From Candidatus Micrarchaeum sp. (GTDB lineage: Archaea; SpSt-1190; DYHY01): a stretch of DNA of 6,056 nucleotides. The position numbers and the translations under genes were made by a program. Shown in pieces: positions 595 through 5,231 of this stretch; within the stretch, counting starts at the first letter, position 1; each line of letters begins with the position of its first letter. The notes beneath the pieces were generated by a model, which worked only from the letters and a program-made list of their open reading frames with translations, was not told the DNA's origin and did not search any database. The DNA lies in assembly GCA_020723935.1 (NCBI GenBank), contig DYHY01000033.1, positions 1 through 6,056 of the forward strand, read 5' to 3'.

Positions 595-1452
595 ATGCCG
601 GGGCGGTATTTTCCCGAAGTCGAGCGCACGGCGGTCGCGATCCGCGACCTGCGCATACAGGGCGCCGTTAGCGTCGCCAGGCGCTCCCTCTCTGCCCTCA
701 GGCTCTTCATTGAGCGCGAGGCCCCCTCAAGGGAGGACCTCTCGCGGCACGCGGGCCTCCTCTCGAGCCAGCGGCCCACGGAGCCGGCCCTGCAGAACTG
801 CCTTGCGCTGGTTCTCGCCAGCGGCGACCCGGCGCTGGCGTGCGCCCAGCTCCTCAACTCGTTCCAAACTGACTTCGCGAGGATCAGGGACGCGGGCTGG
901 CGCTTCGTCCCGGACGGCGGGACCGTCCTCACGCACTGCCACTCCTCCTCGGTCGTCGGCCTCCTGAAGGAGGCGCGCGAGAGGGGCAGGCGGTTTCAGG
1001 TCTATCACACCGAGACGCGCCCGCTCTACCAGGGCCACCGCACCGCCCGCGACCTCGTCTCCGCGAGGATCCGCGCGACGATGTTCGTCGACTCCGCCGT
1101 CAACCACTTCATGCCGGAGGCGGGCATCGTCCTCCTCGGCGCGGACTCTCTGGAGCCCGACGGGTTCGTCAACAAGATAGGGACCTCGCAGGTCGCTCTT
1201 TCCGCGCGCGAGAACGGCAAGCCCCTCTACGTCGTCTGCGGCCTGATGAAGTTCAACGCGAGCGGCGCGAGGATGGCGGTGGAGAAGCGGCCGGCATCTG
1301 AGCTCGGGTTCGCCCTCAGGGGCCTCGCGATAGAGAACCCGGCATTCGACTTCACGCCCGCGCGCCTCGTCAAGGGCGTCGTGTGCGAGGAAGGGGTGCT
1401 CCCCTTGAGGAAGGCCGTATCCCTGGCGAGGAAGAAGCTGGCCCGTTCCTAG
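595..1452 (+). CDS. eIF-2B alpha/beta/delta family protein, probable ribose-1,5-bisphosphate isomerase
   Basis: This 285-residue protein has the eIF-2B/MtnA/R15P-isomerase fold. An N-terminal helical part (about 1-100) contains the family's RIQGAVSVARRSL segment. A Rossmann-like half follows, with VLTHCHSSSVV (Cys115), HTETRPLYQG (Glu140-Arg142), GADSLEPDG (Asp184) and NKIGT (193-197). Archaeal ribose-1,5-bisphosphate isomerase uses a Cys and an Asp (Cys133 and Asp202 in the Thermococcus kodakarensis enzyme, as I recall). The spacing here, 69 residues, is the same, and true eIF-2B alpha subunits lack this Cys. I therefore infer an isomerase, probably converting ribose-1,5-bisphosphate to ribulose-1,5-bisphosphate in the archaeal AMP/nucleoside pathway. 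A related sugar-phosphate isomerase (MtnA-like) remains possible. It is shorter than the roughly 320-residue reference. No RuBisCO or AMP phosphorylase is visible in the window to confirm the pathway. It follows htpX by 12 nt, and its stop overlaps that of the opposing gene. Confidence 0.85.
   Translation: MPGRYFPEVERTAVAIRDLRIQGAVSVARRSLSALRLFIEREAPSREDLSRHAGLLSSQRPTEPALQNCLALVLASGDPALACAQLLNSFQTDFARIRDAGWRFVPDGGTVLTHCHSSSVVGLLKEARERGRRFQVYHTETRPLYQGHRTARDLVSARIRATMFVDSAVNHFMPEAGIVLLGADSLEPDGFVNKIGTSQVALSARENGKPLYVVCGLMKFNASGARMAVEKRPASELGFALRGLAIENPAFDFTPARLVKGVVCEEGVLPLRKAVSLARKKLARS
1449..1452. other. Shared CTAG: overlapping stop codons of convergent genes
   Basis: The palindrome CTAG gives TAG on the plus strand (1450-1452, end of the eIF-2B-family gene) and TAG on the minus strand (1449-1451, end of the downstream surface protein). 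The two coding regions therefore overlap by 4 nt, with no intergenic space. I see no T-rich tract on either strand near it, so each transcript must end inside the opposite gene. Confidence 0.9.
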
Positions 1453-3278
1453 CTGGCCGGAACCTCGTCCCCAAGGGTCCCTGGCAGGAGGGCGTCCGTC
1501 CTGCCGATCGACAGCTCTGCAGGCGACCTCAGCTGCCCGCTGAAGACGTCCGTGTAGTAGACATAGACGGTCCTTGACGCGCCCTTGGCGACCGAAGTTA
1601 TGAAGTCAAGCTTCATCTCCGTGCGCTGCGGCGGCAACTCCTTGGCCCCCTGCGTCACCTGGATCGTCCCGTTGCCCATCCTCGCGTACCCGGCGACGAC
1701 CGCTCCTGAGCCCGCCGAATTGGGGAAGAGGAACGTCCTCGTCCTCGAGATCACCGACGGGTCGAGGCTCTTGGAATCGTCAAGGACGATGAAGTTGGAT
1801 GGCCTTATGAAGCCAGGTATCGCGCGCGGCGAGAAGTAGAAGGCGCCCACGCCCACGCCCGAGGCGGAGGGCTTGGAGGAGTCCCAGTACGCGGAATACT
1901 TCCCGTCCACGACGACGCTGTCCTTGCTGGGCCACACCTCGGCCCAGTTGCTCTGGACGAGGAAGTTCTGGAACTTCCCGCCGAAGTCGATTGTGTTCAG
2001 GTTCGAGAGCTCCAGGTCGTAGTAGGGCGCCCCCGCGTAGAGGGAGATGAGGTATTTGTAGCCGTATTCCTTCGCGCCGCACGTCGTCGAGAAGACGTAC
2101 TCGACCCTTTTCCTCACCGGGCCGTCCTCCAGGATCTTGTGGTTCTTGTACGCGTACGAGGTGCAGGCCGAATAGTCCCAGCCCTCCTTGTAGTTGACCG
2201 AGGGCGTTATCCCGCTGTAGGCTCCCTGGGACCCGACGCTCTGGGCGAGGAGGTTCTCCTTCCCGAAATAGGAGAGGTTCGTTATCCCGCCCCTCACGAG
2301 CCCGAGGCACACGGAAACAATCCCGTTCTTCAGGCACAGCGCGCTGCCGTCGCCCTCCGTCCCGACAGAGAGGCTTGTGTCGTAGATGCCCTCCGTCGCG
2401 TCGGGGTTAGTGTAGTAGACGTAGTAGGTTGAGGACGAGTTCGCCCCGACCGTCGCCTGCATAAGTATTGTGCAGGAGCTCCCGGACGTCTGGAGGACTT
2501 GCATCGGGACGGCGTTCCCGAGCTGGTCGGTCACCCTTATCTCCGAGCACCTTCCGGTGAGGAGCTGGAGGGAGTCCAAGGTCACTTCAACAGGCTCCCC
2601 GGAATACCCCTGCCCGGACTCGTCCTTCAGGGCGAAGGCCTTCCTCCCCGCCCAGGCCCTGTTGAACCAGTTGCTCGAGACGCGCGAGGGTATCTCGAAG
2701 CCGTCCGCGTCCAGGACGACGACGGACTCGGCGGGTATCTGTTTGGTGAATGTGAGGTTCATCCCCGCGCCCCCGAAAGCCCAGACGTTCACGTAATCCC
2801 TGGCCTGGCTTGCGACCGAGAGGGGGCGCTTCCACTTGAAGACGGACATGTCCTTTCCCGCGACCTTCACGGTGTCCTGCGAGAGGCCGTTAGCAACGAC
2901 GCGCACCGTGTGGACGCCGTACGTCACGGAGAGCGGGAGCCTGACTGCCGCCGTCTCCTTGGAGGCGAGGCCCTGGAACCCTCCGATGGGGTCGACGGGC
3001 TTGCCGTCGAAATAGATGGCGGCGGAGTTTATCCTGTCCTTCCCGACGTTCCTCAGGTAGATCACGTTCGCCTTCACCGACTCTATCGCAACCGACGTCG
3101 AGATCCTCTTCTTCGCGGCCTCCACCTCCTTCTCCGCCTGGCTCTTGCCCATCGAGCTCAGGTTGCTCGTGACGAGCCACACAGCGAGGGCCGCCGAAAC
3201 CGCTATGACGACGATGAGCATGACGCCGACGATCTCGACGGCCGCGCGCCGCCGCCGGTTCCCCCTGGGGAAAGCCAT
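1449..3278 (-). CDS. Pilin-like secreted DUF2341 protein (downstream paralogue)
   Basis: A 609-residue predicted surface protein of unknown function. Residues 1-11 are very basic (RRRR at 8-11), followed by AAVEIVGVML and a hydrophobic helix to about residue 36. This resembles an archaeal type IV pilin/archaellin N-terminus, with a plausible prepilin-peptidase cut after Ala12. A short charged stretch (45-60) leads to a small beta domain (about 63-140) with the pilin-like phrase NVIYLRNVGK. A DUF2341 domain starts at WFNRAW (204-209) and ends at YYVYYTNPDA (285-294). A second conserved region follows (about 315-445). Six cysteines (244, 269, 315, 324, 372, 400) match those of the upstream paralogue. 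N-glycosylation sequons occur at 39, 174, 280, 334 and 536. There is no C-terminal membrane segment, so the N-terminal helix is the only anchor. It starts 6 nt after the paralogue and has a Shine-Dalgarno. A pilus-tip or cell-surface carbohydrate-binding role is inference. Confidence 0.85.
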   Translation of the reverse strand: MAFPRGNRRRRAAVEIVGVMLIVVIAVSAALAVWLVTSNLSSMGKSQAEKEVEAAKKRISTSVAIESVKANVIYLRNVGKDRINSAAIYFDGKPVDPIGGFQGLASKETAAVRLPLSVTYGVHTVRVVANGLSQDTVKVAGKDMSVFKWKRPLSVASQARDYVNVWAFGGAGMNLTFTKQIPAESVVVLDADGFEIPSRVSSNWFNRAWAGRKAFALKDESGQGYSGEPVEVTLDSLQLLTGRCSEIRVTDQLGNAVPMQVLQTSGSSCTILMQATVGANSSSTYYVYYTNPDATEGIYDTSLSVGTEGDGSALCLKNGIVSVCLGLVRGGITNLSYFGKENLLAQSVGSQGAYSGITPSVNYKEGWDYSACTSYAYKNHKILEDGPVRKRVEYVFSTTCGAKEYGYKYLISLYAGAPYYDLELSNLNTIDFGGKFQNFLVQSNWAEVWPSKDSVVVDGKYSAYWDSSKPSASGVGVGAFYFSPRAIPGFIRPSNFIVLDDSKSLDPSVISRTRTFLFPNSAGSGAVVAGYARMGNGTIQVTQGAKELPPQRTEMKLDFITSVAKGASRTVYVYYTDVFSGQLRSPAELSIGRTDALLPGTLGDEVPAS

Positions 3279-3284
3279 GCGCGC

Positions 3285-5165
3285 TCAGCTCCCCTCCGTC
3301 TCTTCCTCGCCAAGGTACGCCTTACCGGAGAGCGGGCCGTTCTTAGTGATGAGCTCGGTCATCGTCTTCTCGAATATCGTGTCCCTGACTTCGACTATCG
3401 TCTTGGCGACGATGATCGTCACCGGGTCGGGCATGACGCTCACGCCCTTGATCATGACGGTGCCGGGGGCGAGGAGCGTGCCCGTGCCGGAATACGGGTT
3501 GCCGCTGTAGAGGATCGTCCCGACGCCCAGGGACTGGGGTGAGGAGTAGATGTCGCTCCAGATGTAGCAGTTGTCTGGCGCGCACACGGTCCCCTCCTTG
3601 GTCATCGAGACCATCGAGGGATCCCAGTTGGCCGCGGCTATCAGGCTCTCGCCGCTCGGCGTGAAGAAGATCGGCGTGAGGGTGTCTATGCCGAAGTCGT
3701 AGCCGCTCCTGTTCGCGTACATCCCTATCGTGTACCTGTACGCGTAGGGCGTTCCCTCGCAGGTCGTCCCGAAGGTGTAGTTCACCTGCTGGTAGACCGC
3801 GCCCGTCGTCAGGACCTGCGGGCCCCCCAGGACCGTGTAGTTGGAGCACCAGAGGAGGTCGAGGCCCTCGCGGTAGTCGACCTGCGGCTGTATGCCGGTG
3901 CGGTAGTATTTAGTGTCCCTGCTGTGGACCTGGAGAAGGTTGTTGGCCTTCCCGGTTATCTCGGAGGAGAGGTACGTTATGCCCCCGTCGCCGGGCGCCT
4001 TGCCCAGGCAGAGGCGCAGGTCGCCGTTCTCCATACAGCCCGTCCCGGCGTTGAAGGGCAGGAGGTCGGTAACGAAGTTGGGCGCGGTCGCCGCTGGGTT
4101 GTTGTAGTAGACGTAGCCGATGACCTGGTTGTCGATGTAGGGTATCGCGTCGAAGGGGGCCACGACGTAGCACCAGTCCGACCCGCCCGCGAGGACCTGG
4201 TGGTATATCGGGACGCCGAGCTGGTTCGTGAACCGAAGCTCGTTACAGCTCCCGGTCGCGAGGGTGAGACCTGTGAAGTTGAAGAACGTGTATTCGAACT
4301 CCCTCTTCGCGCCCATCTCCTCGTTGGAGAACAGAGGGCGCCTCGTCCTCCACGCGGGGTTCCACCAGGCGGCCGTGCTCACCGCGCCGCCGGCGAGCTC
4401 CGGGAGGTAGGGCCCGTCCTTCTCCTTTATCTGGGTCATCATGACGTAGACGCCGTTCTGGTCCGCGGTCCTGGGCGCGCTCCAGGTGTTCTCGGATATC
4501 TTCCCCAGGGTGTCTAGCTCCATCGAGCCGTTCGGGAGCATGACCTTCATCTGGACGAGGCCGGGGACGAGGTTCGCGGTTATCGTTATCTCGAACGTCA
4601 TGTTCTGCCCGAGCTTGAGGGTGGTCGGGCGCGAGCGCGCGGTTATCCTGTCTAGGCAGTTGCCGCAGTCGTCCGGGCAGCGCACGCAGCTCTCCTCGAC
4701 AGGGAACTCGCAGATGTTGTTGCCGCAGCGCAAGGTCTTGGAGCGCTCGACGATGAACGTGGCGACCGAGCCGAACTCGGATGTTATTTTCACGTTGTCG
4801 TTCTTCTTCATGTCGAAGGGTATTGAGAGTATTATCGACTCGCCCGGGGACATGGTCTCGGAGCTCTGGTAGGCCTTGACGCCCTCGCCGTTGACGAAGA
4901 CGGTGAAGTTCTTGAGGACGGTCGTCCCCAGGTTCCTCACGTAGATGTTCTTCCCGAAGACCGAGTCGACCGCAAAGAGGGTCCCGGCCTCGCCCGTGCG
5001 CTGCTCAGTCCCCTTGGCGCCAGCGGCCTGCATCTGGTTCTGGGTCTTCGTGATGTAGTACCAGGTGCCCCCGGAAAAGGCCAGGACGAGGAGTATTATG
5101 AGGATGACCGACATTATGGCTTCCACCGCGCGCCTCGCGGGCCTCGCCGCCCTCCTTCCTACCAT
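3285..5165 (-). CDS. Pilin-like secreted DUF2341 protein with Cys-rich module (upstream paralogue)
   Basis: A 626-residue predicted surface protein, first gene of the minus-strand pair. Residues 1-12 are basic (RR at 4-5 and 11-12), then AVEAIMSVIL and a hydrophobic helix to about 37, again pilin-like, with a possible cut after Ala13. A small beta domain (about 64-140) carries NIYVRNLG and an FTVFVNGEGV strand. Residues 147-170 form a compact module with six cysteines, of the CGNxIC...CPDDCG type, absent from the downstream protein. A beta segment (about 180-250) precedes DUF2341, which starts at WWNPAW (267-272) and ends at GYVYYNNPAA (350-359). The conserved C-terminal region (about 377-515) follows. 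Cysteines 307, 332, 377, 386, 440 and 469 match the paralogue; 528 and 533 are extra. Sequons lie at 86, 188, 212, 296, 442, 462 and 485. The tail is acidic (EEETEGS), with no second membrane helix. The function is unknown. The ATG at 5165 is supported by a TATA-like box 31 nt upstream. Confidence 0.85.
   Translation of the reverse strand: MVGRRAARPARRAVEAIMSVILIILLVLAFSGGTWYYITKTQNQMQAAGAKGTEQRTGEAGTLFAVDSVFGKNIYVRNLGTTVLKNFTVFVNGEGVKAYQSSETMSPGESIILSIPFDMKKNDNVKITSEFGSVATFIVERSKTLRCGNNICEFPVEESCVRCPDDCGNCLDRITARSRPTTLKLGQNMTFEITITANLVPGLVQMKVMLPNGSMELDTLGKISENTWSAPRTADQNGVYVMMTQIKEKDGPYLPELAGGAVSTAAWWNPAWRTRRPLFSNEEMGAKREFEYTFFNFTGLTLATGSCNELRFTNQLGVPIYHQVLAGGSDWCYVVAPFDAIPYIDNQVIGYVYYNNPAATAPNFVTDLLPFNAGTGCMENGDLRLCLGKAPGDGGITYLSSEITGKANNLLQVHSRDTKYYRTGIQPQVDYREGLDLLWCSNYTVLGGPQVLTTGAVYQQVNYTFGTTCEGTPYAYRYTIGMYANRSGYDFGIDTLTPIFFTPSGESLIAAANWDPSMVSMTKEGTVCAPDNCYIWSDIYSSPQSLGVGTILYSGNPYSGTGTLLAPGTVMIKGVSVMPDPVTIIVAKTIVEVRDTIFEKTMTELITKNGPLSGKAYLGEEETEGS
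3289..3297 (-). promoter_or_regulatory. Shine-Dalgarno for the downstream DUF2341 gene
   Basis: Read on the minus strand, GGAGGGGAG lies within the last codons of the upstream paralogue (Glu-Gly-Ser), 10 nt before the ATG at 3278. It supports that start and translation of both genes from one mRNA. Confidence 0.65.
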
Positions 5166-5192: not shown

Positions 5193-5199
5193 TATTTAA
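5193..5199 (-). promoter_or_regulatory. TATA-like box (BoxA) for the DUF2341 operon
   Basis: The minus strand reads GGGTTAAATACTG, an AT-rich island in GC-rich DNA that matches the archaeal TATA box. Its centre (5196) is 31 nt from the ATG at 5165. This places the transcription start only a few nt before the start codon. No Shine-Dalgarno lies between, consistent with a leaderless or near-leaderless mRNA. Confidence 0.65.
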
Positions 5200-5223: not shown

Positions 5224-5231
5224 ATTAAAAA
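5224..5231 (+). promoter_or_regulatory. TATA-like box (BoxA) for ileS
   Basis: ATTAAAAA is the only AT-rich stretch in the 57 nt before ileS that could serve it in the plus orientation. Its centre is about 30 nt before the ATG at 5258. The sequence from box to ATG is C-rich without a Shine-Dalgarno, so a leaderless mRNA is likely. Confidence 0.6.

Follow-up and report, generated by a model that had tools for sequence, protein, structure and literature searches.

A conserved pair of large modular pilin-like proteins in a Micrarchaeum genome, candidate minor pilins with putative glycan-binding heads

The window analysed here is a stretch of 6,056 nucleotides from a Candidatus Micrarchaeum sp. 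draft genome (1.14 Mb, 91% complete, 47 contigs), in which it corresponds to contig C13. Two adjacent genes lie on its minus strand, P2 first and P1 after a spacing of 6 nt, and the open reading frames agree exactly with an earlier reading made from the letters of the DNA (the sequence-only reading), which had described neighbouring genes for 609 and 626 residues.

1449..3278, minus strand: P1, the downstream gene, for a modular pilin-like protein of 609 aa (open reading frame, paralogue P2, orthologue at locus L063)
3285..5165, minus strand: P2, the upstream gene, for a modular pilin-like protein of 626 aa (open reading frame, orthologue at L063)
5193..5199, minus strand: TATA-like TTAAATA, a putative promoter element from the sequence, 28 nt 5' of the P2 ATG

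The GGAGG ribosome-binding sequence of P1 sits inside the 3' end of P2, and together with the spacing of the TATA-like element it fits a predicted single operon of P2 and P1. TATA-like elements at window positions 5193-5199 and 5224-5230 each lie 28 nt before the start codon of one of the divergent genes P2 and IleRS, a spacing consistent with leaderless transcripts for both. Besides IleRS, the contig neighbours are an M48 peptidase fragment and an IF-2B family protein (ribose 1,5-bisphosphate isomerase-like, under the cut-off of that model), whose convergent gene overlaps the 3' end of P1 by 4 nt (window 1449-1452).

No pilus genes were found on the 8.5-kb contig carrying P1 and P2, which places the pair outside any type IV pilus locus and bears out the remark that no motor, platform protein or prepilin peptidase lies nearby. 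The assembly machinery was expected elsewhere, and the genome indeed encodes a prepilin peptidase (PF01478, contig C20; no PF06847 peptidase was found in the search of this genome) and has five T2SSE matches, with pilin loci on contigs C26, C16 and C20. A sister genome carries a pilus operon that encodes an ATPase, two T2SSF proteins and a pilin resembling the C26 one, and in another family of the same class (locus L104) a DUF2341 protein is encoded inside a pilus operon. The C20 pilus operon (L028 4258-7478, genome G000) includes two more large class III-like proteins, of 659 and 428 aa, in which no domain was recognised.

P1 and P2 are full-length paralogues (BLASTP 135 bits, E 9e-38, 25% identity over 584 columns), in agreement with the tandem duplication proposed earlier, which we regard as ancient. 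In another genus of the same family (L033/L063), both genes are kept, their order unchanged, and the same divergent IleRS gene again lies next to them; because this arrangement recurs there, conservation of the pair is beyond chance. Alignment showed a linker common to P1 and its orthologue and absent from P2, and a beta insert common to P2 and its orthologue and absent from P1. Since these features are shared between orthologues, and with gene order also carrying the claim, the two genera most likely separated after the duplication; a quartet analysis of the C-terminal region sequences gave the orthologous pairing in 642 of 1000 replicates, weak support for that age. Six cysteines are invariant across P1, P2 and the two orthologues. 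A search of 101 genomes revealed no full-length homologues beyond L033/L063, and there were none in eight other genomes of the phylum; thus the search of related genomes that had been suggested as a check found close homologues only as a pair. A contig scan with P1 alone as query gave no match, while the alignment as query recovered L063, and a protein search of a plasmid collection gave none.

Both proteins begin with the basic n-region, pilin-like helix and beta domain noted in the sequence-only reading.

3099..3242, minus strand: P1 pilin helix, residues 13-60, right after RRRRA, a class III-like site (N-terminal profile E 6.6e-6; predicted helix 11-60)
2853..3098, minus strand: P1 pilin beta domain, residues 61-142 (structure match and beta-only profile)
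4989..5126, minus strand: P2 pilin helix, residues 14-59, right after RRA, a class III-like site (N-terminal profile E 7.5e-5; predicted helix 9-59)
4737..4988, minus strand: P2 pilin beta domain, residues 60-143 (structure match)

A [KR][GA] class III site stands right before the hydrophobic helix in each (RRRRA/AVEIVGV in P1, RRA/VEAIMSV in P2). The beta-domain motif given earlier, NxIY(L/V)RN(V/L)G, describes P1 (NVIYLRNVG), whereas its NxIY part misfits P2 (KNIYVRNLG). With an N-terminal profile built from stand-alone small pilins only, P1, P2 and the two orthologues were among the top matches and ranked higher than ordinary secreted DUF2341 proteins; those with ordinary signal peptides scored E values above 0.08. 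The helix, for which an ordinary signal peptide had been named as the outcome to check, therefore scores as a pilin helix instead. Among 3146 frames, a beta-only profile, with the helix removed, detected complete pilins of 142-158 residues at E 1.7e-9 and 4e-8, which means that the pilin similarity does not stem from hydrophobicity. With the curated models PF07790/TIGR02537, P1 reached 13.3 bits against a cut-off of 25.2 and P2 gave no match; one orthologue matched Pilin_N (4.6e-6) and arch_flag_Nterm (3.2e-6), and ArlF was matched at 4.6e-6 within the set of four. A PDB sequence search with the single proteins returned nothing significant, while a profile query returned mainly archaeal pilins.

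Structure prediction of each protein, also suggested earlier, gave models of low confidence (mean pLDDT 47 and 41, with only four sequences in the alignment), each with a single long helix and a beta domain in a pilin fold. The P1 model matched an archaeal T4 pilin (8fk7; VIA-align Z 9.6, 2.2 A over 84 residues) and FlaG (5tuh; Z 9.3, 1.9 A), and the P2 model matched FlaF (4zbh; VIA-align Z 8.8, 2.0 A over 78 residues) and 8fk7 (Z 8.2 over residues 15-142). Because the small-pilin profile, the beta-only profile and the fold matches agree, a complete archaeal type IV pilin module is well supported as the predicted N-terminus of both proteins. The same module occurs in proteins of 361-372 aa at L011 and L019 (genome G035), the latter running on into a LamG-like stretch and representing another modular pilin type.

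The remainder of each protein carries the predicted head, with an additional insert in P2.

2379..2678, minus strand: P1 divergent DUF2341 domain, residues 201-300 (PF10102 at 19.8-21.9 bits, cut-off 23.4; the part common to DUF2341 proteins over the cut-off)
1677..2375, minus strand: P1 supersandwich-like C-terminal region, residues 302-534 (DUF4861 profile and PL26, PL4 and GH38 folds)
4380..4736, minus strand: P2-specific insert, residues 144-262 (cysteine-rich stretch and beta region)
4080..4379, minus strand: P2 DUF2341-like domain, residues 263-362 (aligned to P1, no Pfam match of its own)
3366..4064, minus strand: P2 C-terminal region, homologous to the supersandwich-like region of P1 (BLASTP and alignment; invariant Cys 377, 386, 440 and 469)

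DUF2341 had been assigned to both proteins; P1 does hold a divergent copy and P2 its aligned counterpart, but P1 misses the Pfam cut-off and P2 has no Pfam match of its own, so we label them DUF2341-like only. Nor is this domain, taken earlier as the outward-facing one, the whole head, as a larger DUF4861/PL26/GH38-like C-terminal region follows it. That region corresponds to the shared C-terminal part that the sequence-only reading had left unnamed: it is homologous between P1 and P2, and in P1 it is DUF4861/supersandwich-like, with the six invariant cysteines. PF16153 (DUF4861) scores 27.8 bits in P1, over its cut-off of 22.3, and the BT_3233 polysaccharide utilisation family matches the P1 head at 1.3e-8, below its cut-off. 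In the P1 model, residues 209-525 matched PL26 rhamnogalacturonan lyase (5xqg) with Z 11.8 over 236 residues, at an rmsd of 10 A over two domains and spanning approximately the first half of the 880-residue chain; residues 302-534 matched PL4 and residues 296-526 the C-terminal part of GH38, both at about 4 A. A likeness to E. coli beta-galactosidase (Z about 8.5, rmsd about 19 A) was dropped as a loose stacking of separate beta domains. Given the low confidence of the model, these matches offer a lead to a glycan-related fold in P1 rather than proof of function, and the P2 head is assigned through its homology to P1. The relatives of the P1 head by fold or profile (PL26 exo-rhamnogalacturonan lyase 5xqg, the GH38 C-terminal domain, DUF4861 and the BT_3233 family) are enzymes or polysaccharide-utilisation proteins, and we know of none with a pilin module. 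A literature search found no papers on DUF4861.

The beta region of the P2 insert is shared with the L063 orthologue, while alignment showed that the cysteine-rich stretch is absent there. This stretch lies at window 4656-4727 (P2 residues 147-170) and reads CGNNICEFPVEESCVRCPDDCGNC. CGDR(I/L)C motifs resembling it occur in pilus-operon proteins at L104 (254 aa) and L148 (448 aa).

Across archaea, DUF2341 was present in 159 of the 394 genomes searched. The 59 proteins in 51 loci that we inspected mostly have ordinary signal peptides, and about 17 of them have class III-like N-termini (judged by eye, with no statistical test). Two other archaeal families encode adjacent large pilin-like pairs: one of 577 and 588 aa with DUF2341 in both (L130 5776-9259), and one of 857 aa with DUF2341, the first, and 1513 aa (L128 6934-14085). 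A single 750-residue protein with Pilin_N, Big_1 and DUF2341 stands beside T2SSE and T2SSF at L097. All three loci resemble P1/P2 in the class III-like N-terminus and DUF2341, and L128 and L130 also in their large neighbours; they differ in their other C-terminal parts and have no full-length similarity to P1 or P2. Since the head profile aligns only to the DUF2341 part of other archaeal DUF2341 proteins, the predicted combination of DUF2341-like and supersandwich-like regions appears special to the P1/P2 family.

The sequence-only reading had considered the two proteins exceptional in size for archaeal pilins, a view that does not stand, since descriptions already exist of modular pilins and of large DUF2341 proteins encoded at pilus loci in archaea. 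In Methanococci and relatives, Makarova and others reported pilus loci that encode two large DUF2341 proteins, for which they proposed a tip-adhesin role (PMC4858521), and in a 2023 screen of Methanococcus maripaludis, transposon insertions in the DUF2341 gene of the epd locus (MMJJ_08210) were among the transformation-defective mutants (PMC10133366). These proteins (arCOG03508 and others) resemble P1/P2 in coming as two large DUF2341 proteins per locus (PMC4858521), but they lie inside the pilus locus, whereas P1 and P2 stand alone beside IleRS. The supersandwich-like region was undetected in the Methanocaldococcus-like DUF2341 homologues examined. As other archaeal DUF2341 proteins align to the C-terminal profile only in their DUF2341 part, the tip role proposed for them is not transferable to the supersandwich. 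In bacteria, modular pilins have been defined and counted (PMC8179133), and a glycan-binding minor-pilin complex has been described with a modelled tip position (PMC9934059). Streptococcus sanguinis PilB and PilC share with P1/P2 a class III N-terminus and a small pilin module with a bulky grafted adhesive module; several such modular pilins are modelled together at the tip, and in PilC a glycan-binding lectin comes after an Ig-like module (PMC8179133, PMC9934059). Unlike P1 and P2, PilB and PilC are bacterial, bear vWA and ConA-like heads in place of the DUF2341-like and DUF4861/PL26-like supersandwich head, form no paralogous pair and are encoded in the pil locus. The arrangement in the window is thus a variant of a design known from bacteria and other archaea, in which the head combination is new.

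In our view, P2 and P1 are probably modular minor pilins that arose by an ancient duplication, with glycan-binding heads near the pilus tip. In both, a well-supported pilin module of class III-like leader, long helix and beta domain is joined to a predicted extracellular DUF2341-like/DUF4861-PL26-like head. After export, the genome's prepilin peptidase would cut behind RRA or RRRRA, and the helix would enter a pilus made by ATPases and platform proteins encoded elsewhere. The bulky heads, oversized for the pilus shaft, would sit together near the tip, where polysaccharide or surface glycan on a substrate, on a neighbour or on the cell's own S-layer may be their ligand; the tip position, the heteromeric complex and the binding are what we infer. 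A stronger version, with an obligate two-subunit tip whose heads, taken from polysaccharide-processing enzyme parts, recognise or even modify surface glycans of partner cells, seems distinctly improbable; if true, it would give an uncultured archaeon with a small genome a device on its pili for handling glycans.

The pilin-type N-terminus may, by another account, only anchor two glycan-binding surface proteins in the membrane, or link them to the S-layer, without any filament, as with the sugar-binding proteins of the Sulfolobus bindosome or the S-layer link of FlaF and FlaG in the archaellum. FlaF and FlaG are among the closest solved folds of the pilin module, the ArlF match points the same way, a BasA match was weak, and the P1/P2 locus lies apart from pilus operons; yet the small pilins resembling the module are of ordinary subunit size, several of them in tandem clusters, and a DUF2341 protein of the same class is encoded within a pilus operon (L104), so that we hold this account to be somewhat unlikely. 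That the heads are active polysaccharide lyases or debranching enzymes displayed on a pilin anchor is very improbable: the P1 head model does resemble PL26, PL4 and GH38 folds and has the sub-threshold BT_3233 match, but the PL26 likeness ends about halfway along the chain, no catalytic residues were identified, and the residues invariant in the four proteins are mostly Cys, Trp, Tyr and Gly. We give hardly any credence to ordinary secreted DUF2341 proteins with a plain Sec signal peptide or stop-transfer helix. Many archaeal DUF2341 proteins do have ordinary signal peptides, and P1 and P2 themselves fall under the Pilin_N cut-off, but the pilin N-terminal profile scores all four large proteins and not the ordinary secreted ones, and pilins are found even by the beta-only profile.

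Such pairs occur in the window, L128 and L130, which suggests that DUF2341 modular pilins recur in pairs among archaea, a recurrence that makes the tip-adhesin proposal of 2016 directly testable. If the reading of P2 and P1 as modular minor pilins is right, it bears on how small-genome archaea attach to surfaces and to partner cells, and the two heads, as soluble proteins, could be expressed for screening on glycan arrays. The modular pilin principle shown in bacteria would then reach an archaeal lineage, in combination with a head type unreported on pilins in the papers cited here.
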